Source: Fulvivirga ligni (lineage in GTDB: Bacteria > Bacteroidota > Bacteroidia > Cytophagales > Cyclobacteriaceae). From it: 64,000 bases of DNA. Shown here piece by piece: positions 6,786 through 30,110 of this stretch. Where the stretch lies: NCBI RefSeq assembly GCF_021389935.1, contig NZ_CP089979.1, positions 2,647,001-2,711,000 on the forward strand. The letters run 5' to 3'. The notes beneath the pieces were generated by a model that was not told the origin of the DNA, made no database searches, and saw only the letters and a program-made list of their open reading frames with translations. Within the stretch, counting starts at the first letter, position 1, and every line of letters starts with the position of its first letter. Position numbers and translations under genes: made by a program.

Positions 6786-9700
6786 ATGATCAATAGAATT
6801 CTCAAAGCCTTTGTTATACTTAGCTTAGGCATGATGATGCAGCCAGTTAAAGTTTTTTCTGACGTCCACATAGCACCTATCAATTTTTCAGTAGACCCTA
6901 AGGATTCGACAATTTTGGCTAATTTTCAACAGACTTTATCACAGTTAGGTTGGCCGACATTTTATGATATTAATGCTCCCGCAAGATCTTGGAGTGGTGT
7001 TACATGGTCTAGTTATTCCGAAGGGGGCCGAGCAACTTACGTGGGATTGGATGGATCTACTTTTGGATTTCAAACTGATAGCCTGCCTGAGCAAATTAAT
7101 TTATTGAAGGATTTGGATCAATTGGAAAGTTTGACCATTTCGGAAATTGGCATAACCTTTATACCCCCTCAAATTAATGAGCTTACACAGATCAAGACTT
7201 TGAGCTTAGTTTATAACAACTTAAATAGCTTGCCATCTGATATTTCCAATCTTACCAGTTTAGAGCAGGTACTTTTGAATGGTAATAAGTTCACAGACAT
7301 ACCTGATCTTTCAAGTCTTACTAGCTTAAAGTACCTCAATCTTAATAAAAATCCTATTGTTGAAAATTACACTATACCGCCCATGGAATCTTTGGAATTT
7401 CTTGGGCTTCAACAGTGTGGCTTAACTAGATTGCCCGAAACAATTAATCAGGTTCCTAATTTGAAGCAGCTGGTATTATCGTTTAACTATCAGCTGCAAT
7501 CATTTCCCAATAATCTTAATCAGCTAACTAAACTCGAACAGTTAAGTGTAAATGAGGGAAATTTAATGGAGCTGCCTGAAGCTTTCGGAAACCTTACTTC
7601 ATTGAAATTATTAGATGTTTCTAATAATAAACTAAAAAATCTACCGACCTCACTCAGCGCGCTAAACTCTTTGGAAATTATTCGTTTTCAATCAAATGAA
7701 ATAGAGACTTTTCCTTTAAGCATTGCTGGGCTACCTCATTTAAAGGAAATAAATGGTAGTAGGAATAGGATGGCTGGGGGCATTCCTTCAGAATTGTTTA
7801 CAAGATCAGATTTGAGAGTTGATCTATCTTTTAATATGCTTTCAGGGGTTATTTCCACCTCAGCAGCAAAGCCCATGCCCACCCTCTTTTTTATAAACAA
7901 TAACTCATTTACTCTCAAGGATATTAATCCGATTTATCAAAGATTAAAGAATAATAACACCAACTTTAAATTTAATCCACAAAATTTAGTAGGCGAGAAA
8001 CAGAAGTTAATTCCTCATGCGGGTTCAGAGTTGAGCCTTTCGATTAGTGCTTATACCCCATTGGCAGGAGTAACTGTAAAGTGGTACAAGACGCCAAAGT
8101 TAATTTATAATGGAGCTCCGATCCTTGTTGGAAGTGGTTTGCCTTTAGTGATAGAGAGTTTTAAACCGTTACAAGATAAAGGTATTTATTATGCCGTAAT
8201 TACGCATCCTGCGCTACCGAATTTGCAAATCGAAAGTGAGAGAACTCGAGTTGTCGGTGATAATCAAGCACCGAGAATAGTAGTGAAAAATTTTCTAGCC
8301 TTTCGAAATGATTCCGTACCAAATATAACTTTCAATGTGTCTGACGATTTTACATATCAAAAGGATCTTCTAGTAAGTATTTCAGAAACTGAGAATTTGG
8401 GCTTTGAAGTTATTGCTGAAGAAACAGCTAACATTGAAAGAAGAATTATTTTAAAAGACCCAAATTGGGTAGGAGTGGATACGGTTACTTTCACAATTAC
8501 GGACGAAGAGGGTGTATTTGCAGAAAAGAATGTAATCATTAAGGTGGCTGATGCTGAGAATAGCGGTCCAATAATTAAACCGATACCACCCATCTATCTC
8601 AATTTTGATTGGGCTTTTGAAAATGGTTCAGAAGGGCCCTGTTCTATGACATATATTTATAGCGCTACCACTATTTTAAGTCCTTTTGCTACTGATGATT
8701 TTGATATTATTGATGACTTATACTTCTCATTAGATCCCTTAGATAGTACAGAGTTTGCTAACAACGACAACATTTTCGTTACCATAAACCAGTTTGGTGA
8801 AACTAAGCAATTAGACATATTACTTTTTGCCTGTGAAGATACCACGTTGAATAAAACTGTCCATCTGATTGTGACAGACAAAGAAGGAGCAAAAAGCACT
8901 GCTCCAGTTACTATAATTTACAATCCATTAGCGCCTAATACTCCTCCAGTGGTACAGCCTATCCCAGATCAGCTGATGGTGAAAGGATCTCAAGGGTTTG
9001 CTGATTTGGATCTATCAGACTATGTGAAAGATGACTATCTTAATATCACTGATCTAAACTTTGAATTAGGAAGTGCTAGTAGTTTCAATATAGAATTTAC
9101 TGAACGTGCAGGTACAACTTACTTAATGGCTCAGCCAATGTTTTCAGATAGTAGTTACACTCAGAAAGTTGACTTTTATGTATTTGAATCTACTAACCAG
9201 AGCAGTTATTCATCATTTAGTATCACTTTCATGGTTATAGAAACTGGGTTTATTATTTCTGGCTTGGTGATAGATGAGGATAATTTACCTGTACCTGGAG
9301 TAGAAGTTCAAGGTTATACCGAAGAAGCGTTTACAGATGAAAGTGGGAAGTATGCTATAGAAGTTATACCAGGTTGGTCTGGTACCCTGACGCCTATGCT
9401 TGCTGATTATACTTTCAGTCCAGAGCAAATTGTTTTTGAAAATGTCCAGACAGATTCTTCTCTTGCAAATTTTATCGGAACCTATGTGGGTGAATATATG
9501 ATTTCTGGTACTATAAGCTTTGCCTCTAATGAGGTAGGTGTTGAGGGAGTTGTGTTAGATGGACTTATTAATGAGGATGTTATTACTGATCAGAATGGGT
9601 ATTACGAGTTTTCTGTTCCTAAAGGTTGGTCTGGCACTATCACCCCAATGTTATCAGGGTATACTTTTACACCAGGGTTCATGACCTATGAGAATGTAAA

Positions 9701-15946: not shown

Positions 15947-17812
15947 TTATTGCTTTAAGAACTTACGTTTTTCAATAGAGCCATCAGACTTTTTGATTAC
16001 TAGAATGTAATAACCTTTTGGCAGGTCCTGGATATTCATTTTAGTTTCATTTAACTTATTATCTGATAGGTCTTTACTAATCACTTTTTCTGTGCCAGAG
16101 TAAATGTCTACAGCTTGTAATGTTGCTGACTCACCACTTTTAACGCTAATCTCATTGGCAGCGGGATTAGGATAGACAATGTCTGTACTTGTGCTCACGA
16201 TGTTATTGCTCAGTGAAGCTTGATATTGGTTCCATAAAGACTGCACGCCTTCACCTAATATATTTTGGCAGGCAGTATTCCATGACCAATTGCTGTAATC
16301 ACGTGCTGACTGATTGAACTTAATGGCAAAATCCGGGTCCTTATTATCGGCTATCCAATCAAGGAAAAAGCCGGATCTTGTATAGCCGTCAGTCCAGCTT
16401 CCACCAGGGCTTGGATATCGCTGTGGCGAAAAGCCATAGGTATTAATTCTTACATAATCAGCCAGACCTTCTATAAAGCCATAAAAGTCGGTTCCGGGAG
16501 TGTAGCCACCGGCATTTTTAGGCTCCCACTGATAGCCATGAGTACCCTCATGAGCTAAAATACCTCTAAGTTCAGCTTCCACAGCGCCATAGTCTTGGTT
16601 ATGACTGTTGTAATAACTCTCCATGTACCTGGAACTCACGGTAATAGAGATTTCGGGCGGACTTCCTGATTTATAGGCAACTCCATCAAAATCGCTTAAA
16701 ATCAGATTGAGTTTAGTAAAATTGACACGTGCATCCAGGTTGTCTTCATAAATTTTCTGACAAATTATAAGGGTCATTTCTCTCAAGACCTGATCCATAT
16801 TGGGCATGGCAGTGTTTACAATGTTAGAACCTGTGGTACCTGCCGCCTGGTTGTCAAATACCACAGTAGGGTAAGTGAAATATTGCCAGTCGGATAGGTC
16901 ATCAGAGACGGTTCCTAGCAATTCCCATTCTGCTAACTGAGTAGCTCCTGCGCCATTATTCACCATATTTAAGCGGTAATAGGTATAGGAGGTGCTGTTA
17001 GAAAATGAGAAAGTCTTCTTCTGAAAACGATTAGGAAAATCTATACCATTTCTGCTATCTAATGTGGTCCAGCTAGAACCATTATTGGAACCTTGAAGCG
17101 TCCAGTTTAACGGATCTCGTGCCGCAGCATCATTAGCTGAAGTAAGTGTGTAGGCTGAAACTACCGGGGATCCACTAGCCTGAAATTGCACCCATGCCGA
17201 CTGGTGAAAGGTCAGGTATTTAGTAGATGATGAATTGTCAATCAGCTTGCTAATGTCTTCATTATTAGGAGAATCAGAATACTGAGCGCTAATGGTGCCA
17301 CCTAAATTGGTGATATCAGTTTGCTCGAATGTGCCAATTAATTCTAATTCAGCTAACTGAAGGGCGCCATCCCCATTGTTTACCATATTCAACCTGAAGT
17401 AGGTGTAGGCGGTAGAGTTAGAAAACGAAAACGTCTTCTTCTGAAAACGGTTTGGGAAATCTACCCCATTTCTGCTGTCTATGGTAGTCCAGCTGGTGCC
17501 ATTATTAGAGCCTTGAAGTGTCCAGTTAAGCGGATCTCGAGCTGCAAAATCGTTAGCTGAGGTCAATGAATAACTGGTAATAACCGCTGCGGTGGTAGAT
17601 CGAAACTGCACCCAGGCGGTACCGTGAAACGTAAGAAACTTGGTGGACGATGACCCATCGATGAGGTTGCCAATAGCCTCATTGTTCGGGGAGTCTGAAT
17701 ACTGTGTGCTGATAGTGCCGGGATAATCCGTAATATCAACACTTTGTGCCACCGCTTTGGATTGAGCAAAATACAGCCCAATGCAAAGCAAAGAGAGAAT
17801 CATTTTTCTCAT
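15947..17812 (-). CDS. Secreted basic-secretory-protein-type metallopeptidase with two discoidin domains and T9SS tail
   Basis: The protein has 621 residues: signal peptide 1-23; two tandem F5/8-type C (discoidin) domains at about 25-164 and 165-302; a basic-secretory-protein domain at about 310-525; and a type A sorting domain (IVYPNPAANEISVKSG). The peptidase domain has the zinc motif HEGTHGYQWE near residue 420, which fits HExxH, and GFIEGLADYVRI supplies a probable third ligand region. Discoidin modules usually bind carbohydrate or extracellular matrix, so this is probably a surface or secreted peptidase acting on glycoprotein. The two discoidin copies are very alike, including an identical FPNRFQKKTFSFSNST stretch, pointing to a recent internal duplication. 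Confidence 0.85.
   Translation of the reverse strand: MRKMILSLLCIGLYFAQSKAVAQSVDITDYPGTISTQYSDSPNNEAIGNLIDGSSSTKFLTFHGTAWVQFRSTTAAVITSYSLTSANDFAARDPLNWTLQGSNNGTSWTTIDSRNGVDFPNRFQKKTFSFSNSTAYTYFRLNMVNNGDGALQLAELELIGTFEQTDITNLGGTISAQYSDSPNNEDISKLIDNSSSTKYLTFHQSAWVQFQASGSPVVSAYTLTSANDAAARDPLNWTLQGSNNGSSWTTLDSRNGIDFPNRFQKKTFSFSNSTSYTYYRLNMVNNGAGATQLAEWELLGTVSDDLSDWQYFTYPTVVFDNQAAGTTGSNIVNTAMPNMDQVLREMTLIICQKIYEDNLDARVNFTKLNLILSDFDGVAYKSGSPPEISITVSSRYMESYYNSHNQDYGAVEAELRGILAHEGTHGYQWEPKNAGGYTPGTDFYGFIEGLADYVRINTYGFSPQRYPSPGGSWTDGYTRSGFFLDWIADNKDPDFAIKFNQSARDYSNWSWNTACQNILGEGVQSLWNQYQASLSNNIVSTSTDIVYPNPAANEISVKSGESATLQAVDIYSGTEKVISKDLSDNKLNETKMNIQDLPKGYYILVIKKSDGSIEKRKFLKQ
16907..17740 (-). repeat. 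Tandem duplication of a discoidin domain (two copies of about 140 codons)
   Basis: Codons 25-164 and 165-302 of the peptidase gene encode two copies of the same domain. They share long identical stretches (QYSDSPNNE, RDPLNWTLQGSNNG, FPNRFQKKTFSFSNST) and clear nucleotide similarity. The unit is about 420 bases. Confidence 0.85.
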
Positions 17813-18112
17813 AATAAAATCGGTTTAGGTTTATGTAATTAACGATTATGAAGATAGTGGTTAAATGGATTCTGTCTAAATCGGGGTGTTGGATGAAGAT
17901 AAAATGAGTGTAAGAAATCGTTTGAAATTTGTCTTATCCTAAGAGAGTGTATAAGATATAGCGCTAATACGTATCAATGAAAGGTGTATTTCTTTAGCAG
18001 TGTACCTTTTGTCGTTCTCTTTATCTATTTATCGAAAATTATGTAGAGTGTAATTTCTTGCCTCAACTTAACCTGAATGGCAGACTTCTAAATGGATAAA
18101 TATTGTTAAAAT

Positions 18113-18139
18113 TAATTATGGTCAAAATGACCATAATTA
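18113..18139. promoter_or_regulatory. Palindromic operator, site A (candidate Nudix-regulator site)
   Basis: Perfect 12-base arms TAATTATGGTCA and TGACCATAATTA flank an AAA spacer. It lies 52 bases upstream of the kinase-HTH start. The inner half-sites TTATGGTCA/TGACCATAA recur with small changes at 29966, 30090 and 35734, all next to xylan-locus genes. Symmetry suggests a dimeric regulator. The Nudix-HTH protein encoded at 34983 is the obvious candidate (inference). Confidence 0.7.
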
Positions 18140-18161
18140 GAAAAAGTTATATATATTTACC

Positions 18162-18180
18162 TGACGTATAATTGACGTAA
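18162..18180 (+). promoter_or_regulatory. Two direct TGACGTA repeats, 11 bases apart
   Basis: TGACGTA occurs at 18162-18168 and at 18173-18179 (the second as TTGACGTAA), spaced by one helical turn and ending 11 bases before the kinase-HTH start codon. The same motif is clustered in front of xylB (24771-24905), so it may be the binding site of a shared regulator, possibly the kinase-HTH protein itself. Confidence 0.5.
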
Positions 18181-18190
18181 TTCTGATTTT

Positions 18191-20167
18191 ATGTATTTAC
18201 TAGGCTATGATATAGGAAGTTCTTCAGTAAAGGCAAGCTTGCTGAACGTTGAGAAAAATCAGGTGAAATGCGTGGTGCAATATCCTGATAATGAGATGGA
18301 TATTATCTCACGCAAGCACGGATGGGCAGAGCAGCAGCCGGAGCTCTGGTGGCAGAACTTTATCATCGTTACCAGAAAGCTTTTAGCAGAATCTAAAGTG
18401 CCAGCATCTCAGATAAAAGGTATCGGCATCTCTTATCAGATGCACGGGTTAGTGCTGGTAGACAAAGACTATCAGGTACTTAGACCTTCCATTATTTGGT
18501 GTGATAGCAGAGGTGTGGAGATTGGGAAAAGCGCTTTTAAAGAGATGGGACGGGAATATTGTCTCCAGAACTTATTAAACAGCCCTGGTAATTTCACTGC
18601 TTCCAGATTAAAGTGGGTTAAAGATAACGAGCCAAACATTTACCAAAGAGTACATAAATTTATGCTGCCCGGAGATTTTATTTCTTTAAAGCTCACAGGC
18701 GAAGCATATACCACCATTCCTGGATTATCAGAAGGGATTTTCTGGGATTTCAATGAGCAAAAAGTATCGTCAGAGCTCCTGAACTATTATGGACTTTCAG
18801 AAGAGCATATTTGTGATATTACCCCCACCTTTGGCATACAAGGCCAGGTAACAAAAGAAGCTGCCGCTTTATGTGGATTGAAGGCAGGTACTCCTGTGAG
18901 CTATAGAGCTGGGGATCAACCTACTAACGCATTGGCGCTGAATGTGATGCGCCCTAATGAGATAGCAGCAACCAGCGGAACCTCCGGAGTGGTGTATGGT
19001 GTGGTGGATAAACCCATTTTTGATTATAAATCACGAGTGAATTCATTTGCTCACGTCAATTATGAGCAGAATCATGATAGGATAGGGGTTTTGCTCTGCC
19101 TAAACGGTGCCGGAATTCAATACAGCTGGATGAAAAACCAGATCGCTCGTGGAGATAGGAATTATAAAGATATGGAGCGCATGGTATCTACAGTACCTAT
19201 TGGGTGTGATGGACTATGCATATTGCCCTTCGGAAACGGAGCCGAACGTATGCTGGAAAATCAGAATATCAACTCGCACATTCATAATATACAATTCAAT
19301 AGACACGATAGAGCACATTTATATAGGGCGGCTTTAGAGGGTGTTGCTTTTTCATTTGTGAGAGGCGTTAATATTCTCAAGGAAATTGGCCTTAAGGTAG
19401 ATGTAATGCGGGTGGGCAATGACAATATGTTTCAGTCTGAGGTGTTTTCTACTACCATTGCTACGCTGCTTGATTGCCAGATAGAGGTGATGGACACCAC
19501 CGCAGCAGTGGGAGCAGCTCGGGCAGCTGGCGTGGCTACAGGTGTTTATAGCTCACTTGAACAGGCTTTAGAGGGAGTAAGTGCAGATGTAGTTTATGAA
19601 CCTGAGTATGACGGAGCGGCTTGCCATAGAGCTTATAATTATTGGCAAAGCTGCTTAGATAAGGCTTTAATGCATAACGCGGCTCGTCCGGCAAATCTTA
19701 ATCTTCGAGAAGCTCTGGAAGATATGGAGCTGAAAATGGAGGAAAAAAGCAAAGAGTTGACGGCTCTTCACCTCAAAATTCAGGCTCGTGATGAGTTTTT
19801 GGAAGAACTTAAAAATGATATCAGAGATCTCCAATCGGAAAATGGCTTTGACCATTCTTATCAGCTGGATCGTATCTTGAAAAAGATTGACAATCAGATG
19901 GATAGAAGTAATCGTTGGCAGTCTTTTGAGCAACATTTTGATGTTATACATGGCGATTTTTTTAAAAACTTGAAAAGCAGTTTCCCGGGCCTTTCGGTGT
20001 CTGATGTGAAGTTGATGGCCCTTCTGAAAATGCGAATGAATACCAAGGACATTGCTGAACAGCTCAACCTCTCAGTAAGAGGGGTGGAGACCAGAAGGTA
20101 CAGGCTTCGTAAAAAGCTACAGCTGGACAGGCACCTTGCTCTGGATAACTTTGTAGAGCAGATTTAA
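18191..20167 (+). CDS. Xylulokinase homologue fused to coiled-coil and LuxR-like HTH domain; putative sugar-sensing regulator
   Basis: The protein has 658 residues. Residues 1-495 are an FGGY-family kinase closely similar to the XylB encoded at 25005. Phosphate loop DIGSSSVKASLL, substrate motif MHG (84-86), catalytic Asp242 in YRAGDQ and the TSGTSGVVYG loop are all kept, so kinase activity is possible. Residues about 500-570 form a charged coiled coil (MEEKSKELTALHLKI). Residues about 575-658 are a LuxR-like helix-turn-helix (MNTKDIAEQLNLSVRGVE, RYRLRKKL). The tail from the coil onward is homologous to the cytoplasmic part of the membrane sensor at 40285. Probably it binds xylulose or a related sugar and regulates the xylose genes. 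Its stop overlaps the convergent GH26 stop by 4 bases. Domain composition is certain; the regulatory role is inference. Confidence 0.9.
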   Translation: MYLLGYDIGSSSVKASLLNVEKNQVKCVVQYPDNEMDIISRKHGWAEQQPELWWQNFIIVTRKLLAESKVPASQIKGIGISYQMHGLVLVDKDYQVLRPSIIWCDSRGVEIGKSAFKEMGREYCLQNLLNSPGNFTASRLKWVKDNEPNIYQRVHKFMLPGDFISLKLTGEAYTTIPGLSEGIFWDFNEQKVSSELLNYYGLSEEHICDITPTFGIQGQVTKEAAALCGLKAGTPVSYRAGDQPTNALALNVMRPNEIAATSGTSGVVYGVVDKPIFDYKSRVNSFAHVNYEQNHDRIGVLLCLNGAGIQYSWMKNQIARGDRNYKDMERMVSTVPIGCDGLCILPFGNGAERMLENQNINSHIHNIQFNRHDRAHLYRAALEGVAFSFVRGVNILKEIGLKVDVMRVGNDNMFQSEVFSTTIATLLDCQIEVMDTTAAVGAARAAGVATGVYSSLEQALEGVSADVVYEPEYDGAACHRAYNYWQSCLDKALMHNAARPANLNLREALEDMELKMEEKSKELTALHLKIQARDEFLEELKNDIRDLQSENGFDHSYQLDRILKKIDNQMDRSNRWQSFEQHFDVIHGDFFKNLKSSFPGLSVSDVKLMALLKMRMNTKDIAEQLNLSVRGVETRRYRLRKKLQLDRHLALDNFVEQI

Positions 20168-21294
20168 TGGGTTTTATTCAGGTATTGGTACAAAGTGTCT
20201 GATGATAGAATAAACGTCTTTTTACTGGTTTCTTCTCTCCATTTTTTAGTGATCAATGAGCTTTTCTGCAGACGGGCATCTATCTTTTGAAAAGTAGGAT
20301 TGTCCTTCCACATAGGCTGGGACTTCCAGTAGGAGTTGATGTAACTCACCGCTTTTATCTCATCCGGATTATCATGGATGGTTTTGAACAAAGGAATAAA
20401 CCATTTTTTCCAAGCTACTTCAGCCTGTTTTGCATCAGAAAGATTTGTGGCTATAGTTTGTCCATCGAATTTAATGGTTTCGTCGCCAATGGTAGGTGTA
20501 GCCTCAGCTATGAACACTGGTTTTCCTTTTTGGCGGGCAAACTCTATCATTTTAGCTTCATCGTACCGAGCGAAGAAGGAATAGGCGCACCAGTCTACAT
20601 AGTCATCACCAGGGTACCAGGCCTCCAAATGATCCAGGCTTGATGCCCAGCCGGTAGATTGCCATACAAAAGCAACATTATTCACTTCCAAGCTATCAAA
20701 GACATCATGAATATGACGGAAAGATTTGATATAGTCCTCTCTGTTATAATGATTCCACTGATGGCCATCAAACTCATAACCTACACGTAGAAATACAGGC
20801 CTCTCGCCTTGCTTTTTGATGAATTCTGCCAAGCCAACTATTAAGTCATCATGCTCACCATTAGCAACTTGTGTCTCATGGTTTACAAAAGCCAAGCCGA
20901 TAGCCAAAGCCATATTTTTAAAGTCGGGATCAGACAATTGCATGGCTATGTTGCTAGGTCCATCACCCCAGTTATCCGTGGTATTTACGCCGTCCAGGCC
21001 TTTGTTGATGTGACCAAATGAGCTGTCTCCGGGTGAAAAATTAGTGTACATGGTAAAGCCAGCTGGTCGGTCGAAGTTGTCCAGGTAGCCATCATTATAG
21101 TTCTCCAATCCACCGATAGCGGCTAATTCCTGGCCCACAAAGAGCAAGACTTTGCCATCTTCAGGTTCGAACTTAGCTAGTTTCCTTGCGGGCTTAGTAA
21201 GACTCTTTTCAAGTTGGGGATCTGACTCTCTACTTTTTAAACAGCTCATCACAGTTAAAAGTAATATACAGATAATGAAGGGTTTCAAGGTCAT
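20164..21294 (-). CDS. GH26-type lipoprotein glycosidase, probable beta-1,3-xylanase
   Basis: The protein has 376 residues with a lipoprotein signal (lipobox LTVMSC, Cys18), so it is lipid-anchored in the outer membrane or periplasm. The catalytic region resembles the GH26 branch that contains beta-1,3-xylanases: FVGQELAAIGG at the start, acid/base Glu174 in RVGYEFDG, WYPGDDYVDWCAYSFF, and nucleophile Glu264 in VFIAEATP. The C-terminal YINSYWKSQPMW strand also matches. It is the last gene of the leftward porter-GH43-GH26 operon, one base after GH43. Xylan linkage is inferred from resemblance and from the xylose genes around it. Beta-mannanase, the other main GH26 activity, is less likely here. 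Confidence 0.8.
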   Translation of the reverse strand: MTLKPFIICILLLTVMSCLKSRESDPQLEKSLTKPARKLAKFEPEDGKVLLFVGQELAAIGGLENYNDGYLDNFDRPAGFTMYTNFSPGDSSFGHINKGLDGVNTTDNWGDGPSNIAMQLSDPDFKNMALAIGLAFVNHETQVANGEHDDLIVGLAEFIKKQGERPVFLRVGYEFDGHQWNHYNREDYIKSFRHIHDVFDSLEVNNVAFVWQSTGWASSLDHLEAWYPGDDYVDWCAYSFFARYDEAKMIEFARQKGKPVFIAEATPTIGDETIKFDGQTIATNLSDAKQAEVAWKKWFIPLFKTIHDNPDEIKAVSYINSYWKSQPMWKDNPTFQKIDARLQKSSLITKKWREETSKKTFILSSDTLYQYLNKTH

Positions 21295-21295
21295 C

Positions 21296-22882
21296 TTATT
21301 TTAATTCGGTATAATTGAAATGCTTAAAATCAGCAGCCTTGCCTTGACCTGATAGATCCTGGCAGCAAATGCCACAGAAGGCTCCCGTAAAGGCAGGTCT
21401 GTAGTGGTTGGTCTCATCACGCACATAGTCATCAGAAAGAATGCTGGCATCTAAGGCTGAACCTATTGGTTTCCAGGTATCAGCTTCTTTATAATGAAAT
21501 TGTAATCTGTCGTAATGAAGCACGCCTTTGAGGTGAATGCCCGGTGCTAATGACTCAATAGCTATTGTTTGCGACTCAGTGACCTTACTCTTGTCATAAG
21601 TGATCACTTGAATGGTCTTTTGTTGCTGATCATCGCAGGATACAGTTAAATAGTGGAAGTGATTGGTATTATAATAAAAAATAAGCCCGGCCATCTGCTG
21701 AAAGTTAACTGGGGCGAATTCCAGGTAGGTGGAGGCTTCAATTTTAAAATGTTGTATTCTCCTCGCGATCAAGCTTTGGTAGTGAAAGGAACTTAAAGAT
21801 TCTCGGCCTTTTAGCCTCAAAAATCCTGGCTTTGCCGTCAAGGTGGCCCAACTTTCTTCTATGGGAACTCTTAATGACTGAAAATGAATATCCAGCACCG
21901 GCTGATCAAAAGTCACATGATGGACACTAGGAGTAAAGTCTTGAGGTGTCTGCCCATTAGAGCTTACCAGGGATCGAGGTGTTCTTGCTCCATTTTTAAG
22001 TTGTGGCCATTGGTTGTCAGGCCAATCTATCAATTCAATGGCTGTTTCCCTACCAAGAATACATTTACCTAAGGGACTCAGTGGCCGCGCAACCAGAAAG
22101 GTAGCTAACCATTGCCCATGCTCATCCTGAATCAGATCTGCATGACCAGCTTTTTGAAGCTCAGCTTCGGGATGATGCCTGGAGGTAATGATGGGATTTT
22201 CAGGGTGAACCTCATAAGGACCTGTGATTGATTGAGAGCGAGCCACCGTAACGGCATGGCCATATTCGGTGCCACCTTCGGCCGTAATCAGGTAGTAAAA
22301 TCCATCTTTCTTATATAAATGTGGCCCTTCAGTGCAGCCAAGTTCGGTACCCTTGAAAATGGTGTGGATCGGTCCGGTCAGTCTTTTTTCAGCTTCATCA
22401 TATTCCTGAAGGGTGATACCTCCAAAAAAATGATTATTACGCTGATCCGTAATCATGGCCAAAAGCCATTTTTTGCCATCAGTATCATGGAAAAGTGAGG
22501 CATCAAAACCGGAAGAATTTAAATACACAGGATCTGACCATTCTCCTAAAATATTATCTGTTGTCACCAGATAGTTGTGGGTGTCTTTCCATTTACCGTC
22601 AAATGATCTTACGTTGCTATACACCAGGTAAAAGGTGTTATTATGATATGAAAGACAAGGCGCCCAAACGCCGCAAGAATCAGGATTTCCACGCATATCT
22701 AACTGCGAGATTCTGTTTAACGGTCTTGCTACTAACTCCCAGTTAATGAGGTCTTTTGAATAATGTATTTGCACACCAGGAAACCATTCAAAGGTGCTGG
22801 TGGCTATATAATAACCATCTTTAGTTTTAATGATAGAAGGATCAGGGTTAAATCCTCTTAAAATGGGGTTTTGTATCTGCAT
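21296..22882 (-). CDS. GH43-family glycosidase, probable cytoplasmic beta-xylosidase
   Basis: This 528-residue protein has no signal peptide, so it acts in the cytoplasm. The five-bladed GH43 propeller is shown by the catalytic base Asp14 (GFNPDPSI), pKa-modulating Asp (SGFDASLF, near 128) and general acid Glu (ELGCTEGPHLYKK, near 187). A C-terminal beta-sandwich of about 200 residues (from about 330) is typical of XynB-type beta-xylosidases. It would release xylose from imported xylo-oligosaccharides. It lies between the sugar porter (8 bases upstream) and the GH26 gene (1 base downstream), clearly in one operon. Alpha-arabinofuranosidase is the main alternative activity of the family. Confidence 0.88.
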   Translation of the reverse strand: MQIQNPILRGFNPDPSIIKTKDGYYIATSTFEWFPGVQIHYSKDLINWELVARPLNRISQLDMRGNPDSCGVWAPCLSYHNNTFYLVYSNVRSFDGKWKDTHNYLVTTDNILGEWSDPVYLNSSGFDASLFHDTDGKKWLLAMITDQRNNHFFGGITLQEYDEAEKRLTGPIHTIFKGTELGCTEGPHLYKKDGFYYLITAEGGTEYGHAVTVARSQSITGPYEVHPENPIITSRHHPEAELQKAGHADLIQDEHGQWLATFLVARPLSPLGKCILGRETAIELIDWPDNQWPQLKNGARTPRSLVSSNGQTPQDFTPSVHHVTFDQPVLDIHFQSLRVPIEESWATLTAKPGFLRLKGRESLSSFHYQSLIARRIQHFKIEASTYLEFAPVNFQQMAGLIFYYNTNHFHYLTVSCDDQQQKTIQVITYDKSKVTESQTIAIESLAPGIHLKGVLHYDRLQFHYKEADTWKPIGSALDASILSDDYVRDETNHYRPAFTGAFCGICCQDLSGQGKAADFKHFNYTELK

Positions 22883-22890
22883 TTAAAAAA

Positions 22891-24666
22891 TCAATTATCT
22901 ATTAGTTCAGCCTCTATTTCCTCCAAAGATTTGCCTTTGGTTTCTACCACATATTTCAAAACAAAAAACAAGCACAAAATCATAAAGGCTGCGAATATGA
23001 AAAAGGTGGTGGCCGAGCCCAGTTTTTCCAGTTCGTATGGAAATATGGTGGCTACCGCAAAACTTGTCAGTGCGTTCAATGAGCCTGCTACAGAAATAGC
23101 CAGTCCTCTTGATCGATTAGGAAATATCTCAGATAGAATGGCCCACATTACCGGGCCCAGCGATATGGAAAATCCAGCTATAAAACCTAAAATGCCTATT
23201 AGCACCCAATTGGCATTAATATTAATGCTGGTGCCTAAAATAACCTGCTTATATGCATCAGCAAAGCGCAGTTCTGTTACTTCATCTGCTGATAATTCCT
23301 GATTAGCTATGATGTTCTGAGCACTACTCATCTGTAGCTCTCTGCTAAAAGCTGTTTTCAAAGTGCTAAAAAAGTCGAGTTCATTCGTATAAACTTTTCC
23401 TTTTTGTCTTTCCAATACGCTGGTAATCAGTTTGATCTCGTAGTTAATGGTATTGTAAGTGTCATGCTGCACCTCAGCTATTACCTGCCCGTTTTTATAC
23501 ACCGAGGCGGCTGTCTGTATGTACACAATGCTATCTTTCTGGTAGATTTTAGGGTTGGTGGCTTTGGCCTGGGCCAATACCTCAGAATCCTTCAATGACT
23601 GCTCTAGGCTAGTGATGGTATTATCAGTAACCTTATAGGTTGCTATGTAGAAAGAATAACCTACCATTACCAGAAAAGCAGCCATGATAGATGTGCCTAT
23701 GATCAAAAGCGGCTTCCTACCCAATCTATCTATTACCAGCATCGATAATACGGTGAATACCATGAAGATAATACCTACAATTATGGCCTGAAGAAAGGCG
23801 GTGTCAGTGGCGCCTCCGGCCGTTTCAAAAATCATCGGGGCATAATAAAGTACTGCATTAATGCCGCTTACCTGTTGAAAGAAGGCAAGCGCAAGACCAA
23901 TAATCAGCACTACTTTCATTCTTCGGGAAAACACTTCTGATAGCTTAGCTTTTTTCTCTTTTTTAGTGGCTTTAAGTGTGTTCTGGATATTCTGAAATTC
24001 AATGACTGCCTGTTCATGATCTCTCACCTTATTCAGAGTGAATTTAGCCTCTTCCAAGCGACCTTTTTGGATGAGCCACCTGGGGCTTTCTGGAATGATA
24101 AATAGAAGTATGAAATATAACGCGGCAGGGAAGGCTCCTATGCCCAGCATCCATCGCCAGTTCAGGTCTGGGTCTTCTATGAACTGAAGTATGTAGTAGT
24201 TAGAAAAGTATGCTATCGATAAACCAAGTACTATATTTAATTGGTTGATAGTGACTAGCTTACCTCTATTTTCGGGAGGAGCCATTTCAGCGATATACAT
24301 AGGAGCTACTAGTATAGCTATGCCTACACCAATACCTGCAACAAATTTACAAATGATGAAAATGATAATGTGCCCCGCCAATGCTGTACCTGACGCCCCA
24401 AGCATAAATAAGAAGGCTGTAATTAATAATGCTTTCTTTCTTCCAATAGCATCGCTGATCATGCCGGCAGTTAGGTTGCCTAGAATAGATCCTAATAGAA
24501 TGGCACTGGTACTAATCCCTAGCAGCAGAGGTTGGCTGGAGATATTGAAGGTGTTTTTATAGAAGGTGATGGCCCCAGAATTAACTACGCCGTCAAAACC
24601 CAAAAGAAAGCCCCCAAGTGCTACTATAACAGATATTAATACAGGGTAGAGTTGATTTTTTTTCAT
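22891..24666 (-). CDS. Sugar porter (MFS) transporter, probable xylose:H+ symporter
   Basis: This is a sugar-porter-family major facilitator with 12 membrane helices. Signatures are the N-terminal GGFLLGFDGVVNSG, the GRKKALL loop, PESPRWLIQKGRLEEA, the QQVSGINAVLYYAP motif of helix 7, and the closing VVETKGKSLEEIEAEL. I place the start at the ATG at 24666 (MKKNQLYPVLIS). The frame is open to 24756, but that would add 30 residues unlike the family and would place a conserved regulatory-looking site inside the gene. An insertion of about 130 residues between helices 9 and 10 (about 370-500, with KDSEVLAQAKATNPKIYQKD) makes it longer than XylE. It heads the operon with GH43 and GH26. Xylose is inferred as substrate from context. 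Confidence 0.85.
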   Translation of the reverse strand: MKKNQLYPVLISVIVALGGFLLGFDGVVNSGAITFYKNTFNISSQPLLLGISTSAILLGSILGNLTAGMISDAIGRKKALLITAFLFMLGASGTALAGHIIIFIICKFVAGIGVGIAILVAPMYIAEMAPPENRGKLVTINQLNIVLGLSIAYFSNYYILQFIEDPDLNWRWMLGIGAFPAALYFILLFIIPESPRWLIQKGRLEEAKFTLNKVRDHEQAVIEFQNIQNTLKATKKEKKAKLSEVFSRRMKVVLIIGLALAFFQQVSGINAVLYYAPMIFETAGGATDTAFLQAIIVGIIFMVFTVLSMLVIDRLGRKPLLIIGTSIMAAFLVMVGYSFYIATYKVTDNTITSLEQSLKDSEVLAQAKATNPKIYQKDSIVYIQTAASVYKNGQVIAEVQHDTYNTINYEIKLITSVLERQKGKVYTNELDFFSTLKTAFSRELQMSSAQNIIANQELSADEVTELRFADAYKQVILGTSININANWVLIGILGFIAGFSISLGPVMWAILSEIFPNRSRGLAISVAGSLNALTSFAVATIFPYELEKLGSATTFFIFAAFMILCLFFVLKYVVETKGKSLEEIEAELIDN

Positions 24667-24679
24667 GAAGGCGCATTTA

Positions 24680-24694
24680 AATTCGCAAACGATT
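24680..24694. promoter_or_regulatory. LacI-operator-like site upstream of the porter gene
   Basis: AATTCGCAAACGATT here is identical to the first 15 bases of the palindrome at 43419-43440. The AAACGATT core resembles LacI/GalR-family operators. It lies 14 bases upstream of the porter ATG at 24666. The second half is degenerate here. Confidence 0.45.
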
Positions 24695-24770
24695 TCATAA
24701 AGAAAGCTATTTTGCCTAACTATCAGTAAGGTTTCACTACTGCACGAATTCGCCATAATTTATTCATTTG

Positions 24771-24905
24771 TACGTCATTACTCAATGGAAAAAGTTGCCA
24801 AAGTCTAGTTCCTGAAAATGCGGCTACGTCAACAGTACGCCACTGTATGGTAGTGAAGGGTTGTTGACGTATGAAATTGGCGTATTTATGAATTTAATTG
24901 ACGAA
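24771..24905. promoter_or_regulatory. Cluster of TTGACGTA-like motifs upstream of xylB
   Basis: Motifs read as follows: TACGTCA at 24771-24777, TACGTCAA at 24825-24832, TACGCCAC at 24836-24843, TTGACGTA at 24864-24871, TTGGCGTA at 24877-24884 and TTGACGAA at 24898-24905. The first three are on the minus strand. The same motif appears twice just before the kinase-HTH gene (18162-18180). Density far exceeds chance for a 7-8 base word, so this is a likely regulator-binding array. Confidence 0.6.
24825..24871. repeat. Nested inverted repeat in the xylB upstream region
   Basis: Perfect 10-base arms TACGTCAACA (24825-24834) and TGTTGACGTA (24862-24871) enclose a second inverted repeat, CACT/AGTG at 24841-24844 and 24852-24855. 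It could be two facing operator sites that support looping, or an RNA hairpin in a long leader. Confidence 0.65.
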
Positions 24906-25004
24906 TGGGTGAAGTATTGAAAGTAAGTGCATTCCACATGAAAAACACCAAATTTGTGAAGTTCAACTGATTAAAAAAACGATAGCAAAACAACCAATTC
25001 CCTC

Positions 25005-26498
25005 ATGAGTAAATATTTAATAGGTTTTGATATCGGTAGCTCGTCTATAAAGGCGGCGCTGGTAAACGCCGAGACACGGGAGACCGTAGGCATGGCGCAA
25101 TACCCTGATACTGAGATGGAAATACAGGCCTTGCAGGAAGGCTGGGCCGAGCAGGATCCTGAACAGTGGTGGGAGTATGTGGCCAAAGTATGTAAAAAAG
25201 TATTAGCCCAAACCGGTGTCAACGGCGCTGATGTAGAATCGATAGGTCTTTCTTATCAGATGCATGGTTTGGTGCTGGTAGATAAAGGCCAGAAAGTACT
25301 TCGTCCTTCTATTATCTGGTGCGATAGCCGCAGTGTAGATATCGGCAATGACGCTTTTGAGGGAATAGGAGAAAAAGTATGTCATACTCACTTGCTAAAT
25401 TCACCGGGTAATTTTACCGCCTCAAAACTGATGTGGGTAAAAGAAAATGAGCCTGAGGTTTATAGTAAAATACACAAGTTCATGCTTCCTGGAGATTTCA
25501 TAGCTATGAAAATGACAGGGAAGATCGTTACCACCAAATCGGGCTTGTCAGAAGGTATCCTTTGGGATTTTCAGAATAATGATATCGCTCAGATGGTGCT
25601 TGATTATTATGATATTGACCGCTCCTTAGTTCCGGAAATAGCTGATACTTTCTCAGTTCAGGGCCTCGTAACCGAGCAGTCTGCCGAAATTCTGGGCTTA
25701 AAAGCAGGAATCCCTGTTACCTACCGAGCTGGTGATCAGCCCAATAATGCCTTATCCTTACAAGTGACTAAGCCAGGGGAAATCGCAGCTACCGGCGGCA
25801 CTTCAGGCGTGGTGTACGCTGTGGTAGATCAGCCTTTATATGATGGGGCATCACGAGTAAATGGCTTTGCTCATGTTAATCATCAGTCTGATGCTCAGAG
25901 AATCGGAGTATTGCTTTGTATCAATGGAGCCGGGTCACAATACCGCTGGGTAAGACAAGTTGTGGGTGAAGATGTGAGCTATGAGAAAATGGAAGAGATG
26001 ATCAACCAGGTGCCTATTGGTGCTGATGGCCTTCGCATTGTTCCTTTTGGAAATGGAGCCGAGCGCATGTTGGAGAATCAATTTGTAGGTGCTCAGGTCA
26101 ACAATATTCAATTTAACCGCCATGGTAAAGGTCATATGTACAGAGCAGCTCTTGAAGGAGTGGCTTTTGCCTTTGTCTATGGTGTGGAGATTATAAAAAA
26201 CATGGGTATTGAGACGCATGTTATTAAAGTAGGAAATGATAATTTATTCAGATCTAAAGTGTTTTCTACTACTGTGGCCACCCTTACAGGTTGCAGAATA
26301 GAAGTAATAGAAACTACCGGTGCGGTTGGAGCGGCCAGAGGATCTGGATTAGTGACAGGGAGATATAAGGAGCTGGATGATATTTATGGCAAGGCCGAGC
26401 AGGTAGATAGCTATGAAATGAGCCCTGACAAAGACCCCTACCAGAAGGCTTATAACATCTGGAAAAAAGACTTAAAGAATTTATTAGAGAACAATTAA
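25005..26498 (+). CDS. xylB: Xylulokinase
   Basis: This 497-residue FGGY-family kinase phosphorylates D-xylulose to xylulose 5-phosphate. Motifs are the N-terminal phosphate loop FDIGSSSIKAAL, substrate motif MHG (86-88), catalytic Asp244 in YRAGDQPNN, and ATGGTSGVVYA. It is first in the rightward xylB-xylA-transketolase operon. The order xylB before xylA, with 13 bases between, is unlike E. coli's xylA-xylB. It is a close paralogue of the kinase part of the fusion at 18191 but stops at the normal length. Cytoplasmic. Confidence 0.95.
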   Translation: MSKYLIGFDIGSSSIKAALVNAETRETVGMAQYPDTEMEIQALQEGWAEQDPEQWWEYVAKVCKKVLAQTGVNGADVESIGLSYQMHGLVLVDKGQKVLRPSIIWCDSRSVDIGNDAFEGIGEKVCHTHLLNSPGNFTASKLMWVKENEPEVYSKIHKFMLPGDFIAMKMTGKIVTTKSGLSEGILWDFQNNDIAQMVLDYYDIDRSLVPEIADTFSVQGLVTEQSAEILGLKAGIPVTYRAGDQPNNALSLQVTKPGEIAATGGTSGVVYAVVDQPLYDGASRVNGFAHVNHQSDAQRIGVLLCINGAGSQYRWVRQVVGEDVSYEKMEEMINQVPIGADGLRIVPFGNGAERMLENQFVGAQVNNIQFNRHGKGHMYRAALEGVAFAFVYGVEIIKNMGIETHVIKVGNDNLFRSKVFSTTVATLTGCRIEVIETTGAVGAARGSGLVTGRYKELDDIYGKAEQVDSYEMSPDKDPYQKAYNIWKKDLKNLLENN

Positions 26499-26511
26499 AA
26501 CCTTATGAATA

Positions 26512-27846
26512 ATGAGTAATAACGTATTATTAGGAGACAAAGAATATTTTAAAGGCATAGGAAAAATACAGTTTGAGGGTAAGGAATCTGATAACCCTAT
26601 GGCTTTTAAATATTACGACGAGAATAAAGTAGTGGCCGGAAAAAGCCTGAAAGACCACTTCAGATTTGCAGTGGCTTACTGGCATACCTTCTGTGGTACA
26701 GGTGGCGATCCTTTCGGTCCTGGCACTAAAGCTTTTCCGTGGTCTACGGCTAGTGACGTAGAGCAAGAGGCTAAAGACAAATTAGACGCTGCTTTTGAGT
26801 TCATTACCAAACTTGGTGTGCCTTACTACTGCTTCCATGATTTTGATATGGCGGCTGAAGGAACCAGCTTCAAGGAGTCTGAAAGAAGGCTGCAAATAGC
26901 TTCTGATTATGCACTAGAAAAGCAAAAAGCCAGCGGTGTGAAATTATTATGGGGTACCGCTAACCTGTTTTCAAACCCAAGGTACATGAATGGAGCTTCT
27001 ACCAGCCCTGATTTTAGTGTGGTTGCTTATGCAGGTGCGCAAGTGAAAAATGCTCTGGATACAACTATCAAACTGGGTGGTGAAAACTATGTATTCTGGG
27101 GAGGTAGAGAAGGTTACATGTCTCTTCTAAACACTAATATGAAGAAAGAGCAGGATCATTTGGCTAGATTCTTACATATGGCCAAAGAGTATGCTCGTAA
27201 GCAAGGTTTCAAAGGTCAATTCTTTATTGAGCCTAAGCCCATGGAGCCTACCAAGCATCAATATGATTTCGATGCCGCTACGGTGCTAGGCTTCTTAAGA
27301 GGTTATGATCTCATGGATGATTTTAAGCTTAATTTGGAAGTGAACCATGCTACCTTGGCTCAGCACACGTTTACCCACGAACTTCAGGTGGCAGCTGATG
27401 CAGGCCTATTAGGAAGTATAGATGCTAACAGAGGTGATTATCAGAACGGCTGGGATACAGATCAATTTCCGATCAATTTATACGAACTTACTGAGGCCAT
27501 GCTGATCATTCTTGAGGCTGGTGGTTTTAAAGGAGGAGGCGTAAACTTCGATGCTAAAACACGAAGAAATTCTACTGACCTTGATGATATTTTCCATGCG
27601 CATATTGGAGGAATGGATGCCTTCGCCAGAGCACTGATCACTGCCGACAGGGTATTGGAAAACAGCAACTATAAAAAACTCAGAGCCGAAAGGTACAGCT
27701 CCTTTGATGCTGGAAAAGGCCTTGATTTTGAGCAAGGTAAACTCAGTCTGGAAGACCTATATGCTATAGCTAGCGAGGCAGGAGAGCCAAAATTAATAAG
27801 TGGCAAGCAAGAGATGTACGAAAACATTATTAATCACTATCTTTGA
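26512..27846 (+). CDS. xylA: Xylose isomerase
   Basis: This 444-residue enzyme converts D-xylose to D-xylulose. Typical class II features: the N-terminal extension ([25 protein letters not shown]), [18 protein letters not shown], the catalytic His-Asp in [11 protein letters not shown], the metal-binding [13 protein letters not shown] and [13 protein letters not shown], and [17 protein letters not shown] near the metal site. Length is standard for the family. It sits between xylB (13 bases upstream) and transketolase (32 bases downstream). Substrate assignment is firm for the family and supported by context. Confidence 0.97.
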
Positions 27847-27878
27847 GCCGAACAATTAAAAAAACCTAGCTAAATCTT

Positions 27879-29915
27879 ATGGCCAATCCAAAATTAGATA
27901 AACTATCTGCTGATAACATTAGGCTACTCTCTGTAGCAATGGTTGAAAAAGCTAATTCCGGCCACCCCGGTGGACCAATGGGAGGAGCTGATTTCATGCA
28001 TGTATTGTACAGTGAATTCTTGCAATTTGACCCAGACAATACAGAATGGCGTTGGAGAGATCGATTCTTTTTAGATCCAGGACACCTCTCTGCTATGTTA
28101 TATTCGCAGTTATACCTTTTAGGAAATTATTCTAAAGATGATGTTTCTAACTTCCGCCAATGGGGTTCTATCACACCTGGTCACCCTGAAGTGGACCACA
28201 AAAGAGGTGTAGAGAATACATCTGGTCCTTTAGGGCAAGGACATGCCATGGGTATTGGAGCAGCATTAGCTGGTAAGTTTCTAGAGGAGAGATTTGGTAG
28301 CTGGACTGATCACACCATTTATGCTTACATTTCTGATGGTGGTATTCAGGAAGAAATAAGCCAGGGTGCTGGTCGTATTGCAGGTTACTTAGGCTTAAGT
28401 AACGTGGTAATGTTCTTCGATAGCAATGATGTGCAATTAAGTACGTATACAGATGAAGTTACTTCTGAAGATACTGCTAAAAAATATGAAGCCTGGGGAT
28501 GGAACGTGACTACTATTGATGGTCATGATCATGATGCAATTAGAAAAGCGCTGAAAGATGCTAAGGCAGAAACAAAAAGACCTACATTGATCATAGGTAA
28601 AACCATCATGGGTAAAGGTGCTGTTGATGCAGATGGAAAACCTTACGAAGGTTACAGTGTACTTCACGGTAAGCCTTTAGGTGGTACTGATGCTTCTTAT
28701 GAGAAAACAGTAGAAGCTTTAGGAGGAAAAGTAGATGATCCATTTGCTATTTTCGAAGATGTTGAGGCTTACTACAAAGAGATCATAGATAGAAAAAGAG
28801 AAGAAGTAAAGTCTGTGAAAGCAGAGGAAGAAAAGTGGAAAAGTGCTAACCCTGAGTTAGCTAAGAAACTTGACTTATTCTTCAGTGGTGATATTCCTGA
28901 GATTGATTTCTCACAGATACCTCAAAAAGCGAATGTAGCTTCAAGAGATGCTTCATCTGCAGTTTTAGGTTATTTGGCTGATAAAGTTGAGAACCTAATC
29001 GTAGCTTCTGCTGACTTGGCTAACAGTGATAAAACTGATGGTTTCTTAAAGAAATCAAAAGCTTTCGGAACACATGATTATGCAGGTAACTTCATGCATG
29101 CTGGTGTATCTGAATTTACAATGGCAGCTATGGCTAACGGAATGGCCCTGCACGGTGGTATCATCCCGGTGGTAGGTACTTTCTTCATATTCTCAGATTA
29201 TCAAAAGCCTGCTTACAGACTTTCTGCACTTATGGAGCTTCCTGTAATTTATTTATGGACACATGATGCCTTCAGAGTAGGAGAGGATGGACCAACCCAC
29301 CAGCCAATAGAGCAAGAAGCTCAGCTTAGATTGTTAGAAAAACTTCGTAACCACAAAGGTGAAAGAAGTTTATTAGCTCTAAGACCTGCTGATGCTGCTG
29401 AAACTACAGTAGCTTGGGAAATGGCTTTGAAAAATAAGAAAACACCAACCGGCTTAATCTTCTCAAGACAAGGTATTAAAGACCTTATTGCGAAGGACGG
29501 TGACCGTTATTCCGAAGCTGAAAGTGCTAGAAAAGGTGCTTACAGAGTACAATCTGTAGACGGAGCTGATGTTACTTTAGTAGCTAATGGTTCTGAGGTA
29601 GCCACTTTATTCGAAGCAGCACAGCTACTTGAAAAAGACGGTGTGAAAGCGAATATCGTTTCTGTTATTTCTGAAGGTTTATTCAGAGATCAGTCTGAAG
29701 CATACCAGGCAGAAGTAATTGATGAAAATTCACCAATATTTGCCTTAACCGCAGGCCTACCAGTAACTATGGAAGGATTAGCAGGTAAGAAAGGTAAAGT
29801 ATTCGGCTTAAGCCATTTTGGTTATTCTGCACCAGCTACAACTTTAGATGAGAAGTTCGGCTTTACCGGTGAGAATATCTATAATGAAGTAAAGGCATAT
29901 TTAAAGAGCCTATAA
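27879..29915 (+). CDS. tkt: Transketolase
   Basis: This 678-residue thiamine-diphosphate enzyme exchanges two-carbon units in the non-oxidative pentose phosphate pathway, using xylulose 5-phosphate made by XylAB. Motifs are the N-terminal EKANSGHPGGPMG, the ThDP/Mg site ISDGGIQEE with SNDVQLS, FMHAGVSEFTMAAMANGMALHGG with the catalytic Glu, and THDAFRVGEDGPTHQPIE. It is full length, not a split enzyme. Codon choice looks more uniform than its neighbours, as expected of a well-expressed enzyme. It ends the xylB-xylA-tkt operon and is followed by a strong terminator. Confidence 0.96.
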   Translation: MANPKLDKLSADNIRLLSVAMVEKANSGHPGGPMGGADFMHVLYSEFLQFDPDNTEWRWRDRFFLDPGHLSAMLYSQLYLLGNYSKDDVSNFRQWGSITPGHPEVDHKRGVENTSGPLGQGHAMGIGAALAGKFLEERFGSWTDHTIYAYISDGGIQEEISQGAGRIAGYLGLSNVVMFFDSNDVQLSTYTDEVTSEDTAKKYEAWGWNVTTIDGHDHDAIRKALKDAKAETKRPTLIIGKTIMGKGAVDADGKPYEGYSVLHGKPLGGTDASYEKTVEALGGKVDDPFAIFEDVEAYYKEIIDRKREEVKSVKAEEEKWKSANPELAKKLDLFFSGDIPEIDFSQIPQKANVASRDASSAVLGYLADKVENLIVASADLANSDKTDGFLKKSKAFGTHDYAGNFMHAGVSEFTMAAMANGMALHGGIIPVVGTFFIFSDYQKPAYRLSALMELPVIYLWTHDAFRVGEDGPTHQPIEQEAQLRLLEKLRNHKGERSLLALRPADAAETTVAWEMALKNKKTPTGLIFSRQGIKDLIAKDGDRYSEAESARKGAYRVQSVDGADVTLVANGSEVATLFEAAQLLEKDGVKANIVSVISEGLFRDQSEAYQAEVIDENSPIFALTAGLPVTMEGLAGKKGKVFGLSHFGYSAPATTLDEKFGFTGENIYNEVKAYLKSL

Positions 29916-29920
29916 TTATA

Positions 29921-29950
29921 AACCCCATCAGTTCTTCTGGTGGGGTTTTC
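29921..29950 (+). terminator. Rho-independent terminator of the xylB-xylA-tkt operon
   Basis: AACCCCATCAG (29921-29931) pairs with CTGGTGGGGTT (29937-29947), with one T-G pair and a 5-base loop, followed by TTTTC. It lies 5 bases past the transketolase stop, so the SusC gene downstream needs its own promoter. Confidence 0.88.
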
Positions 29951-29965
29951 TTATGTAAAATAATG

Positions 29966-29986
29966 TTATGGTAAAATTGACTATAA
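29966..29986. promoter_or_regulatory. Palindromic operator, site B
   Basis: This 21-base site has half-sites TTATGGTAA and TGACTATAA, with an imperfect centre. It matches the core of site A at 18 of 21 positions. It lies between the transketolase terminator and the xylan-locus SusC gene. Confidence 0.6.
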
Positions 29987-30089
29987 GAAAATTTTATTGT
30001 AGCTTTAGTATCTATTAATCAATCATCTACATTAATCCTTAACCTTTAAAACCTTATGCGAAATTCTACACGCCCTTTCTTTAGATATC

Positions 30090-30110
30090 TTATGGTAAAA
30101 ATGACTATAT
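30090..30110. promoter_or_regulatory. Palindromic operator, site C
   Basis: Half-sites TTATGGTAA and TGACTATAT are arranged as at site B, 124 bases further downstream and 79 bases before the SusC start. Two copies in front of one gene suggest cooperative binding or repression by looping. Confidence 0.6.

Follow-up and report, generated by a model that had tools for sequence, protein, structure and literature searches.

Several described regulators reuse a metabolic enzyme as a sensor. In trigger enzymes, PutA, BirA and NadR among them, a metabolic enzyme domain is joined to a DNA-binding domain on one polypeptide, and to our knowledge none of these is an FGGY kinase. Regulators of the ROK family, among them NagC, Mlc and XylR of the Firmicutes, are transcription factors for sugar genes in which a sugar-kinase fold serves as sensor; according to the available part of PMC2873477, the Firmicutes XylR also serves xylose. 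In the Bacteroidota, the NrtR-family regulators AraR and XylR reuse a Nudix enzyme fold as a pentose sensor, as described in the available part of PMC4666351, and the motifs of SusR-like regulators are also direct repeats (PMC3878776, available in part). Here, we describe a gene of Fulvivirga ligni, hereafter FUS, at positions 18191-20167 (+) of a 64,000-nucleotide stretch of contig NZ_CP089979.1 (the window). Open reading frame (ORF) analysis, domain scans and predicted structure identify its 658-residue product as a fusion of a xylulokinase, a coiled coil and a LuxR-type helix-turn-helix (HTH). FUS is probably a transcription factor, and we consider it likely to be a one-component regulator built from a xylulokinase that switches xylose genes through direct repeats.

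FUS resembles the ROK regulators in its use of a sugar-kinase fold and differs from them in its kinase family, in the position of its HTH, which is C-terminal rather than N-terminal, and in its predicted direct-repeat operator; no ROK match was obtained at E up to 0.1, FGGY domains and a C-terminal HTH being found instead. It is like PutA, BirA and NadR in that an enzyme domain and a DNA-binding domain share one chain, an arrangement known here from sequence. The SusR-like or propeller regulators have a homologous C-terminal coil-HTH, and the closest tail to that of FUS in its own genome belongs to such a regulator at 40285-43197 (-), with 36-39% identity by sequence comparison. These proteins have a membrane span and sensor domains regarded as periplasmic, whereas FUS has a kinase in their place (no Reg_prop or Y_Y_Y match by Pfam at E up to 0.1), and published SusR-like motifs have a long spacer, compared with 4 bp in the FUS repeat. 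The NrtR-family AraR and XylR likewise employ a metabolic-enzyme fold as a pentose sensor for sugar pathways, but their domains are unrelated (NUDIX and NrtR_WHD were unmatched in FUS) and the palindromes found here are unlike the FUS direct repeat. The sequence-only reading, an earlier annotation of this DNA, knew of no described FGGY-LuxR fusion, and no FGGY-HTH regulator was found in the open-licence PMC literature among the matches listed, as judged by titles and the starts of abstracts.

The FUS ORF begins with ATG and contains no internal stop. Its xylulokinase domain (residues 1-493, 18191-19669, +) was matched by Pfam as FGGY_N at residues 2-247 (E 8.7e-53, 179.9 bits against a gathering threshold of 28.8) and FGGY_C at residues 259-449 (E 5.3e-11, 43.1 bits against 27), and its predicted fold matched solved xylulokinases by Foldseek (3ifr_A, E 1.1e-35; 2itm_A, E 1.3e-34). 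D7, M84-H85-G86, D242 and T261-S-G-T-S-G266, including T264, are all present. By manual count on the alignment, D7 and D242 lie opposite D6 and D233 of E. coli XylB (2itm), which we take to be catalytic, and we assume the corresponding substrate and catalytic roles for the FUS residues. At 293.9 bits FUS falls below the TIGR01312 XylB equivalog cut-off of 380.25, as does the tail-less XylB of the window (309.7).

The kinase is followed by a helical linker or coiled coil (residues 497-585, 19679-19945, +), which was delimited by predicted structure and identity comparison and is the least conserved part of the protein (27-42% identity to four relatives), and then by a LuxR/GerE-type HTH (residues 586-658, 19946-20164, +), assigned by profile and structure comparison. 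The tail was predicted to form long helices and then an HTH resembling LuxR/NarL domains. A profile of 11 tails matched solved LuxR-type HTHs (EsrB, E 2.5e-5; SsrB and EvgA, E 0.0017), and the 50 rows shown by VIA-align were LuxR/NarL-type chains by title, the best being DosR with 63 residues aligned at an rmsd of 2.3 and a Z of 8.1, a middling value that may reflect a common arrangement. Foldseek with the tail gave nothing under E 0.1 (best E 0.12), and the match to BT3442_fam (E 1.6e-6) was far below the family cut-off. The earlier description of an FGGY xylulokinase homologue with MHG at 84-86, Asp242 and TSGTSG, running in frame into a coiled coil and a LuxR-like HTH, was thus borne out. 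The fusion is real and conserved. An assembly error splitting the gene at about 19680, the artefact that the same reading had singled out, was excluded because the genome is one contig and full-length relatives (51-70% identity) occur in many other assemblies.

The predicted operator of FUS lies 11 bp from its ATG and consists of two half-sites, TGACGTA-N4-TGACGTA, with an 11-bp period (18162-18179, +); it contains the -7-like octamer TATAATTG. In the first set of fusions, all 11 non-Saprospiraceae genes carried this repeat on the same strand with at most two mismatches, its start lying 20-149 bp upstream of the ATG; the twelfth row of that upstream set was the tail-lost gene L016, which stands outside the 11. 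A scoring matrix was trained on these 11 FUS promoters only, the xylB promoters being kept out of training. Among six later, held-out FUS genomes, the FUS promoter scored at least 24 in five, and the sixth has a two-mismatch pair, CGACGTATATTTGAAGTA, found by eye and overlapping the ATG. Overall, a direct repeat with at most two mismatches was present before or at the start codon of 17/17 non-Saprospiraceae fusion genes examined.

Occurrence of the repeat at xylB promoters tracked the fusion. Scores of at least 15 bits were reached in 9/10 FUS genomes versus 0/59 non-FUS genomes, in which the highest score was 9.0, and other periods from 8 to 15 were found in at most one of the ten. Five independent contrasts were available on the xylB tree, of which a mean of 4.8 were concordant and none was ever discordant. 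The xylB promoters of the six later FUS genomes scored 22.0 in three cases and 11.0-13.3 in the other three, and four same-genus promoters from genomes without FUS all scored at or below -0.2. The regions 18113-18180 and 24771-24905, proposed earlier as binding targets, both contain these conserved direct repeats, although the palindrome at 18113-18139 is likelier to belong to the Nudix-type regulator described below.

The sites at xylB also mostly keep a regular distance to a -7-like box. The predicted FUS activator array at xylB-xylA comprises four half-sites (24878-24916, +; spacing 11/10/11), with the -7-like CAAATTTG 32 bp downstream at 24949-24956. A second predicted array of four half-sites (24738-24777, -) faces the divergent XylE-GH43-GH26 genes, where TGCAGTA is followed after 32 bp by the -7-like TTTCTTTA at 24698-24705; further half-site pairs are TGGCGTACTGTTGACGTA (24825-24842, -) and TGAAGGGTTGTTGACGTA (24854-24871, +). 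The 32-bp spacing was first noticed by eye in eight of 16 promoters and then counted: a half-site, 32 bp and NNNNTTTG occur at xylB in 13/16 FUS-genome promoters versus 1/59 others, and the preceding half-site, with a gap of 43 to the box, in 15/16 versus 0/59. Six of the eight promoters outside the noticing set (L184, which is nearly a copy of L093, L192, G889, G774, G861, G783, G873 and G886) have the spacing, L192 and G886 giving no exact fit. L097 has a quartet, 32 bp and TTTATTTG with an imperfect last half-site and is the third promoter outside the 13. The divergent promoters of L010 and L090 have TGCAGTA, 32 bp and TTGTTTTG (counted by eye). We read the xylB array as a putative activator site 45-85 bp before the transcription start. 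At FUS itself, the octamer within the pair matches the -7 box TAnnTTTG exactly in 7/17 genes and within one mismatch in 15/17, and this overlap suggests autorepression.

The genome of F. ligni contains eight sites with at most one mismatch, versus two for a reversed control: one at FUS, one between xylB and XylE, one beside a paralogue of the Nudix regulator and five that coincide with the termini of a repeated element. The five were rejected as FUS targets, since they are element ends accompanied by a transposase-like ORF. That element (L101, L102, L103, L106 and L107), presumably IS110-like, ends in TNACGTACCAATGACGTA, which mimics the operator. The site TGACGAACCTTTGACGTA between the Nudix-regulator paralogue and a 434-residue ORF (L104, G000:C1:2108398) is a possible further target. 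Scanning of 33 genomes at one mismatch or fewer found a site in 16. Ten of 11 non-Saprospiraceae genomes with a full fusion had one at FUS or xylB, G007 having them at xylB and none at FUS and G752 having none; six fusion-less genomes had a single site each, none at a recorded xylB. No such site was present in three Saprospiraceae fusion genomes or in the tail-lost G756.

The state of the kinase was assessed over 106 columns with at least 97% conservation across 69 XylB proteins; when the XylBs were withheld one at a time, no single protein differed at more than 4 of these columns. Departures in the window fusion number 4/106 (K139R, N245T, G256N and G438A). Deviations number 0-5 outside genus g68, that of Reichenbachiella: L012, L013, L014, L094 and G774 depart at 0-1 columns, L016 at none and L009 at 5. 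Within g68, five of six fusions lack ATP-site residues. These five (L017, L092, G783, G873 and G886) depart at 7-11 columns, with D7E or D7Q, G263A and T264E, and with G409T in four; we take D7, G263, T264 and G409 to form part of the ATP and phosphate site. All five fusions are unchanged at Q83, M84, H85 and D242 and keep the HTH. The sixth, G861, has four departures, among them G409S, but keeps D7 and T264. Between L017 and L092, the kinase domain has a dN/dS of about 0.02 and the HTH has 0/73 residue differences with 22 third-position changes, so both domains are evidently under selection though catalysis looks lost. More generally, HTH changes between close relatives fall almost entirely at third codon positions, a count that was used because dN/dS is saturated for most pairs. 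Most g68 fusions are probably pseudokinase sensors. The earlier phrase "kinase turned regulator" fits these five proteins and does not clearly fit the window protein, with its four deviations.

Elsewhere in the group, catalysis may be retained. In the Saprospiraceae metagenome-assembled genomes (MAGs) G754 and G755, which may be incomplete, the fusion is the sole xylB match, and in L014 (G754) the gene order is GH10-GH3-FUS-XylA-SSF symporter; the Saprospiraceae fusion probably also serves as the xylulokinase. The tail-lost L016 is likewise the sole xylB match of its genome. L016, from a Roseivirga MAG, keeps the kinase, and short frame-shifted remnants of the HTH tail were found at 9461-9590.

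Full-length fusions are carried by a family of marine bacteria and by Saprospiraceae. The genome_contigs collection held nine full-length fusion loci and one cut by a contig end, from Fulvivirga, Marinigracilibium, Roseivirga, Marinoscillum, Reichenbachiella, a Cyclobacteriaceae MAG and Saprospiraceae MAGs. Among sampled genomes of the family, 5/98 and, separately, 17/390 (E at most 1e-203) had a full-length fusion. One carrier is Fulvivirga kasyanovii JCM 16186 (L008); for another strain of that species, 48LL, PMC12565237 reports modest to low growth on D-xylose in defined medium. The sampled phylum gave 1/395, the window's own genome (E at most 1e-150), in a set in which the Saprospiraceae genomes with fusions did not appear. 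The fusion was present in 4/15 same-genus genomes among those listed, and fusion genomes total 20, one of them partial, with each genome counted once. None of 709 plasmid records with a match covered 80% of the fusion. In a tree of 56 kinase domains made by a quick method, 13 fusions and L016 were recovered as a single clade with an SH-aLRT of 99, in which L016 branches next to its Roseivirga sister; this tree includes one wrong ORF, L049, with a branch over 5, and no such branch occurs in the xylB contrast tree.

The normal-length xylB paralogue at 25005-26498 (+; domain scan) was confirmed to be tail-less and is 56% identical to the fusion. Its recent duplication was ruled out as the source of FUS, which the sequence-only reading had called a duplicated kinase: the fusions form a single clade apart from xylB, and the same-genus genomes G741 and G820 have no fusion match though their xylB is 83-84% identical to that of the window.

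A mechanism can be proposed from these features. The FGGY domain would act as the sensor by binding D-xylulose, plus ATP where that site is intact; xylulose is suggested as the signal because the sugar-site residues are kept. The coiled coil would multimerize FUS and pass on domain movement, and the LuxR-type HTH would bind head-to-tail 7-bp TGACGTA half-sites spaced 11 bp apart on one helix face. Roles were assigned from site positions. The two half-sites of the FUS promoter, situated at the start or adjacent to it, may overlie the -7 box, and FUS would probably repress itself, while at xylB-xylA and the divergent XylE-GH43-GH26 genes, where about four half-sites end 32 bp before the -7 box, it would probably activate. 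DNA binding, activation and repression, the xylulose ligand and the oligomeric state are all inferred. We lean, somewhat less firmly than to the regulator assignment itself, towards a fuller account in which FUS represents an undescribed class of transcription factor with an FGGY sensor, which began as a bifunctional xylulokinase activating its pathway and repressing itself through phased repeats, with some lineages becoming pseudokinases and one losing the tail. The earlier proposal of a sugar-kinase transcription factor controlling the xylose genes gains from the repeats at FUS and xylB that track the fusion, and direct control is putative.

Several observations weigh against this interpretation. 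The GerE/LuxR match at residues 610-645 lies below the Pfam gathering threshold (22.0 versus 23.5 bits; 22.6 for the tail scanned alone). The Fisher p of 1.8e-10 for the xylB contrast is too strong because the FUS genomes are related, and a sign test on the five tree contrasts cannot fall below p 0.0625. Three of the six later xylB promoters are below the 15-bit line, the L011 xylB promoter reaches just 7.6 bits, and a weak pair of 8.2 bits, ranking second among the 59, is present at xylB in G741, which belongs to the same genus and has no FUS. No convincing repeat was found at L014 and L015, fusion genes of Saprospiraceae, or on L018, with operon starts at or beyond contig edges; the pairs in L014 (14.0 and 10.5 bits) and the one in L015 (9.5 bits) all lie within ORFs. 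A second, partial xylB match is present in Saprospiraceae G758. At up to two mismatches, sites in the F. ligni genome are not enriched (26 versus 42 in the control), and five of the eight closer sites are the transposase-like element ends. As to the promoters, TAnnTTTG is a pattern that we take to be the Bacteroidota -7 consensus, and the xylB boxes are mostly TTnnTTTG instead. Four letters of the box, its T, A, T and G, already belong to the half-sites, and 7/14 first pairs at xylB, none exact, also hold a -7-like octamer within one mismatch; the case for autorepression is for these two reasons weaker than the 32-bp rule.

The repeats could be the binding sites of a different regulator that accompanies the fusion, FUS being only a kinase with a passenger tail. 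Given the relatedness of the FUS genomes, several of which have xyl clusters in common, a linked factor could co-occur, and the propeller regulator of the same genome has a homologous HTH. We nevertheless regard this as unlikely. The repeat is present at FUS also in fetched stretches that contain neither xylA nor xylB (L012, L013, L017, L092 and L094), and the HTH has changed almost only at third positions, even where the ATP-site residues are lost. G741 has a propeller regulator yet only the weak xylB pair mentioned above, and the regulator's own predicted site is TGATGTA: a TGATGTA-N4-TGATGTA repeat (43356-43373, +), its predicted operator, lies between it and its SusC neighbour, in the same place as in G741. 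Two regulators with homologous HTHs thus appear to share one half-site geometry with a single base changed, which supports attributing the repeats to this family of HTHs. The TGATGTA pair is in its own right a possible operator for such regulators. A version of the favoured interpretation, with which it overlaps, holds that FUS is mainly a bifunctional trigger enzyme whose catalysis sets DNA binding. The largely intact kinase columns outside g68, the two Saprospiraceae genomes in which FUS is the sole xylB match, and L016, which keeps all 106 columns in the same situation, are consistent with it, but the five fusions without ATP-site residues keep the HTH, and their genomes keep the repeats at both FUS and xylB, so that turnover cannot be a requirement in these cases; as a general account it is plausible without being the one we favour.

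The Nudix/NrtR-type regulator at 34983-35678 (+; NUDIX, NrtR_WHD and AraR_C) is a second candidate xylose regulator, and it could own the sites around FUS and leave FUS incidental. By its Pfam domains it is of the NrtR/AraR kind, which according to the available part of PMC4666351 includes the predicted xylose regulator BtXylR, a kinship drawn from description. A perfect palindrome, TAATTATGGTCA-AAA-TGACCATAATTA (18113-18139), precedes FUS and is the likely operator of this regulator, and similar sites precede SusC and GH26 genes. This possibility appears very improbable as a replacement for FUS. The palindrome, with at most three mismatches, is present at only 4/69 xylB promoters (G088, G741, G061 and G066), also lies close to xylB in G820, and occurs at 1/10 FUS promoters tested, that of the window; the direct repeat differs from it in sequence and geometry and tracks FUS, and the two regulators can act together. 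The palindrome was accordingly ruled out as the FUS operator, since it accompanies Nudix genes, which lie beside or near xylB in G741, G088 and G061, the three palindrome genomes inspected. A locus already controlled by the Nudix regulator seems either to have acquired FUS or to have retained it, and the two regulators appear layered at the window fusion gene.

If the assignment of FUS as a xylulokinase-derived regulator holds, it would be the first FGGY-kinase transcription factor within the literature searched and a second route, besides ROK, from sugar kinase to regulator. Three states seem to be represented among related genomes (bifunctional, pseudokinase sensor and tail lost), which makes an enzyme-to-regulator transition testable from existing sequences and would mean that its intermediates persist in living species. 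With operator and promoter geometry this precise, binding and reporter assays could be done quickly, and Bacteroidota genetics could gain a useful part in the form of a xylulose-responsive activator whose operator is defined.

The genes around FUS complete the xylose locus. On the minus strand, domain scans identified a GH26 enzyme (20164-21294), a GH43 protein with a beta-xylosidase C-terminal domain (21296-22882) and a XylE-like sugar porter (22891-24756). The match to the porter falls into two segments separated by a long insert, and its ORF start is probably over-long, the translation placing the real start probably at the Met at 24666. XylB is followed on the plus strand by xylose isomerase XylA (26512-27846), named from sequence and context, and a transketolase (27879-29915; TIGR00232, 604.5 bits, below the cut-off of 682.25). 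The L010 and L090 loci also hold FUS, GH26 and GH43, and the G741 stretch has XylB, XylA, transketolase and the Nudix and propeller regulators without FUS, GH26, GH43 and XylE. No structured RNA was matched by Rfam in 17800-31000. Nudix-type palindromes lie at 18113-18139, 29966-29986, 30090-30110 and 35734-35754, before the FUS, SusC and GH26 genes. Family GH26 includes beta-1,3-xylanases and mannanases, as is also stated in the available part of PMC12125979. The two GH26 proteins of the window (20164-21294 and 35807-39409), near GH43 and the xylose genes, resemble the beta-1,3-xylan loci described in that part of PMC12125979. Upstream of FUS, 15947-17812 encodes a secreted BSP-type peptidase with two F5/8 type C domains and a T9SS sorting tail.

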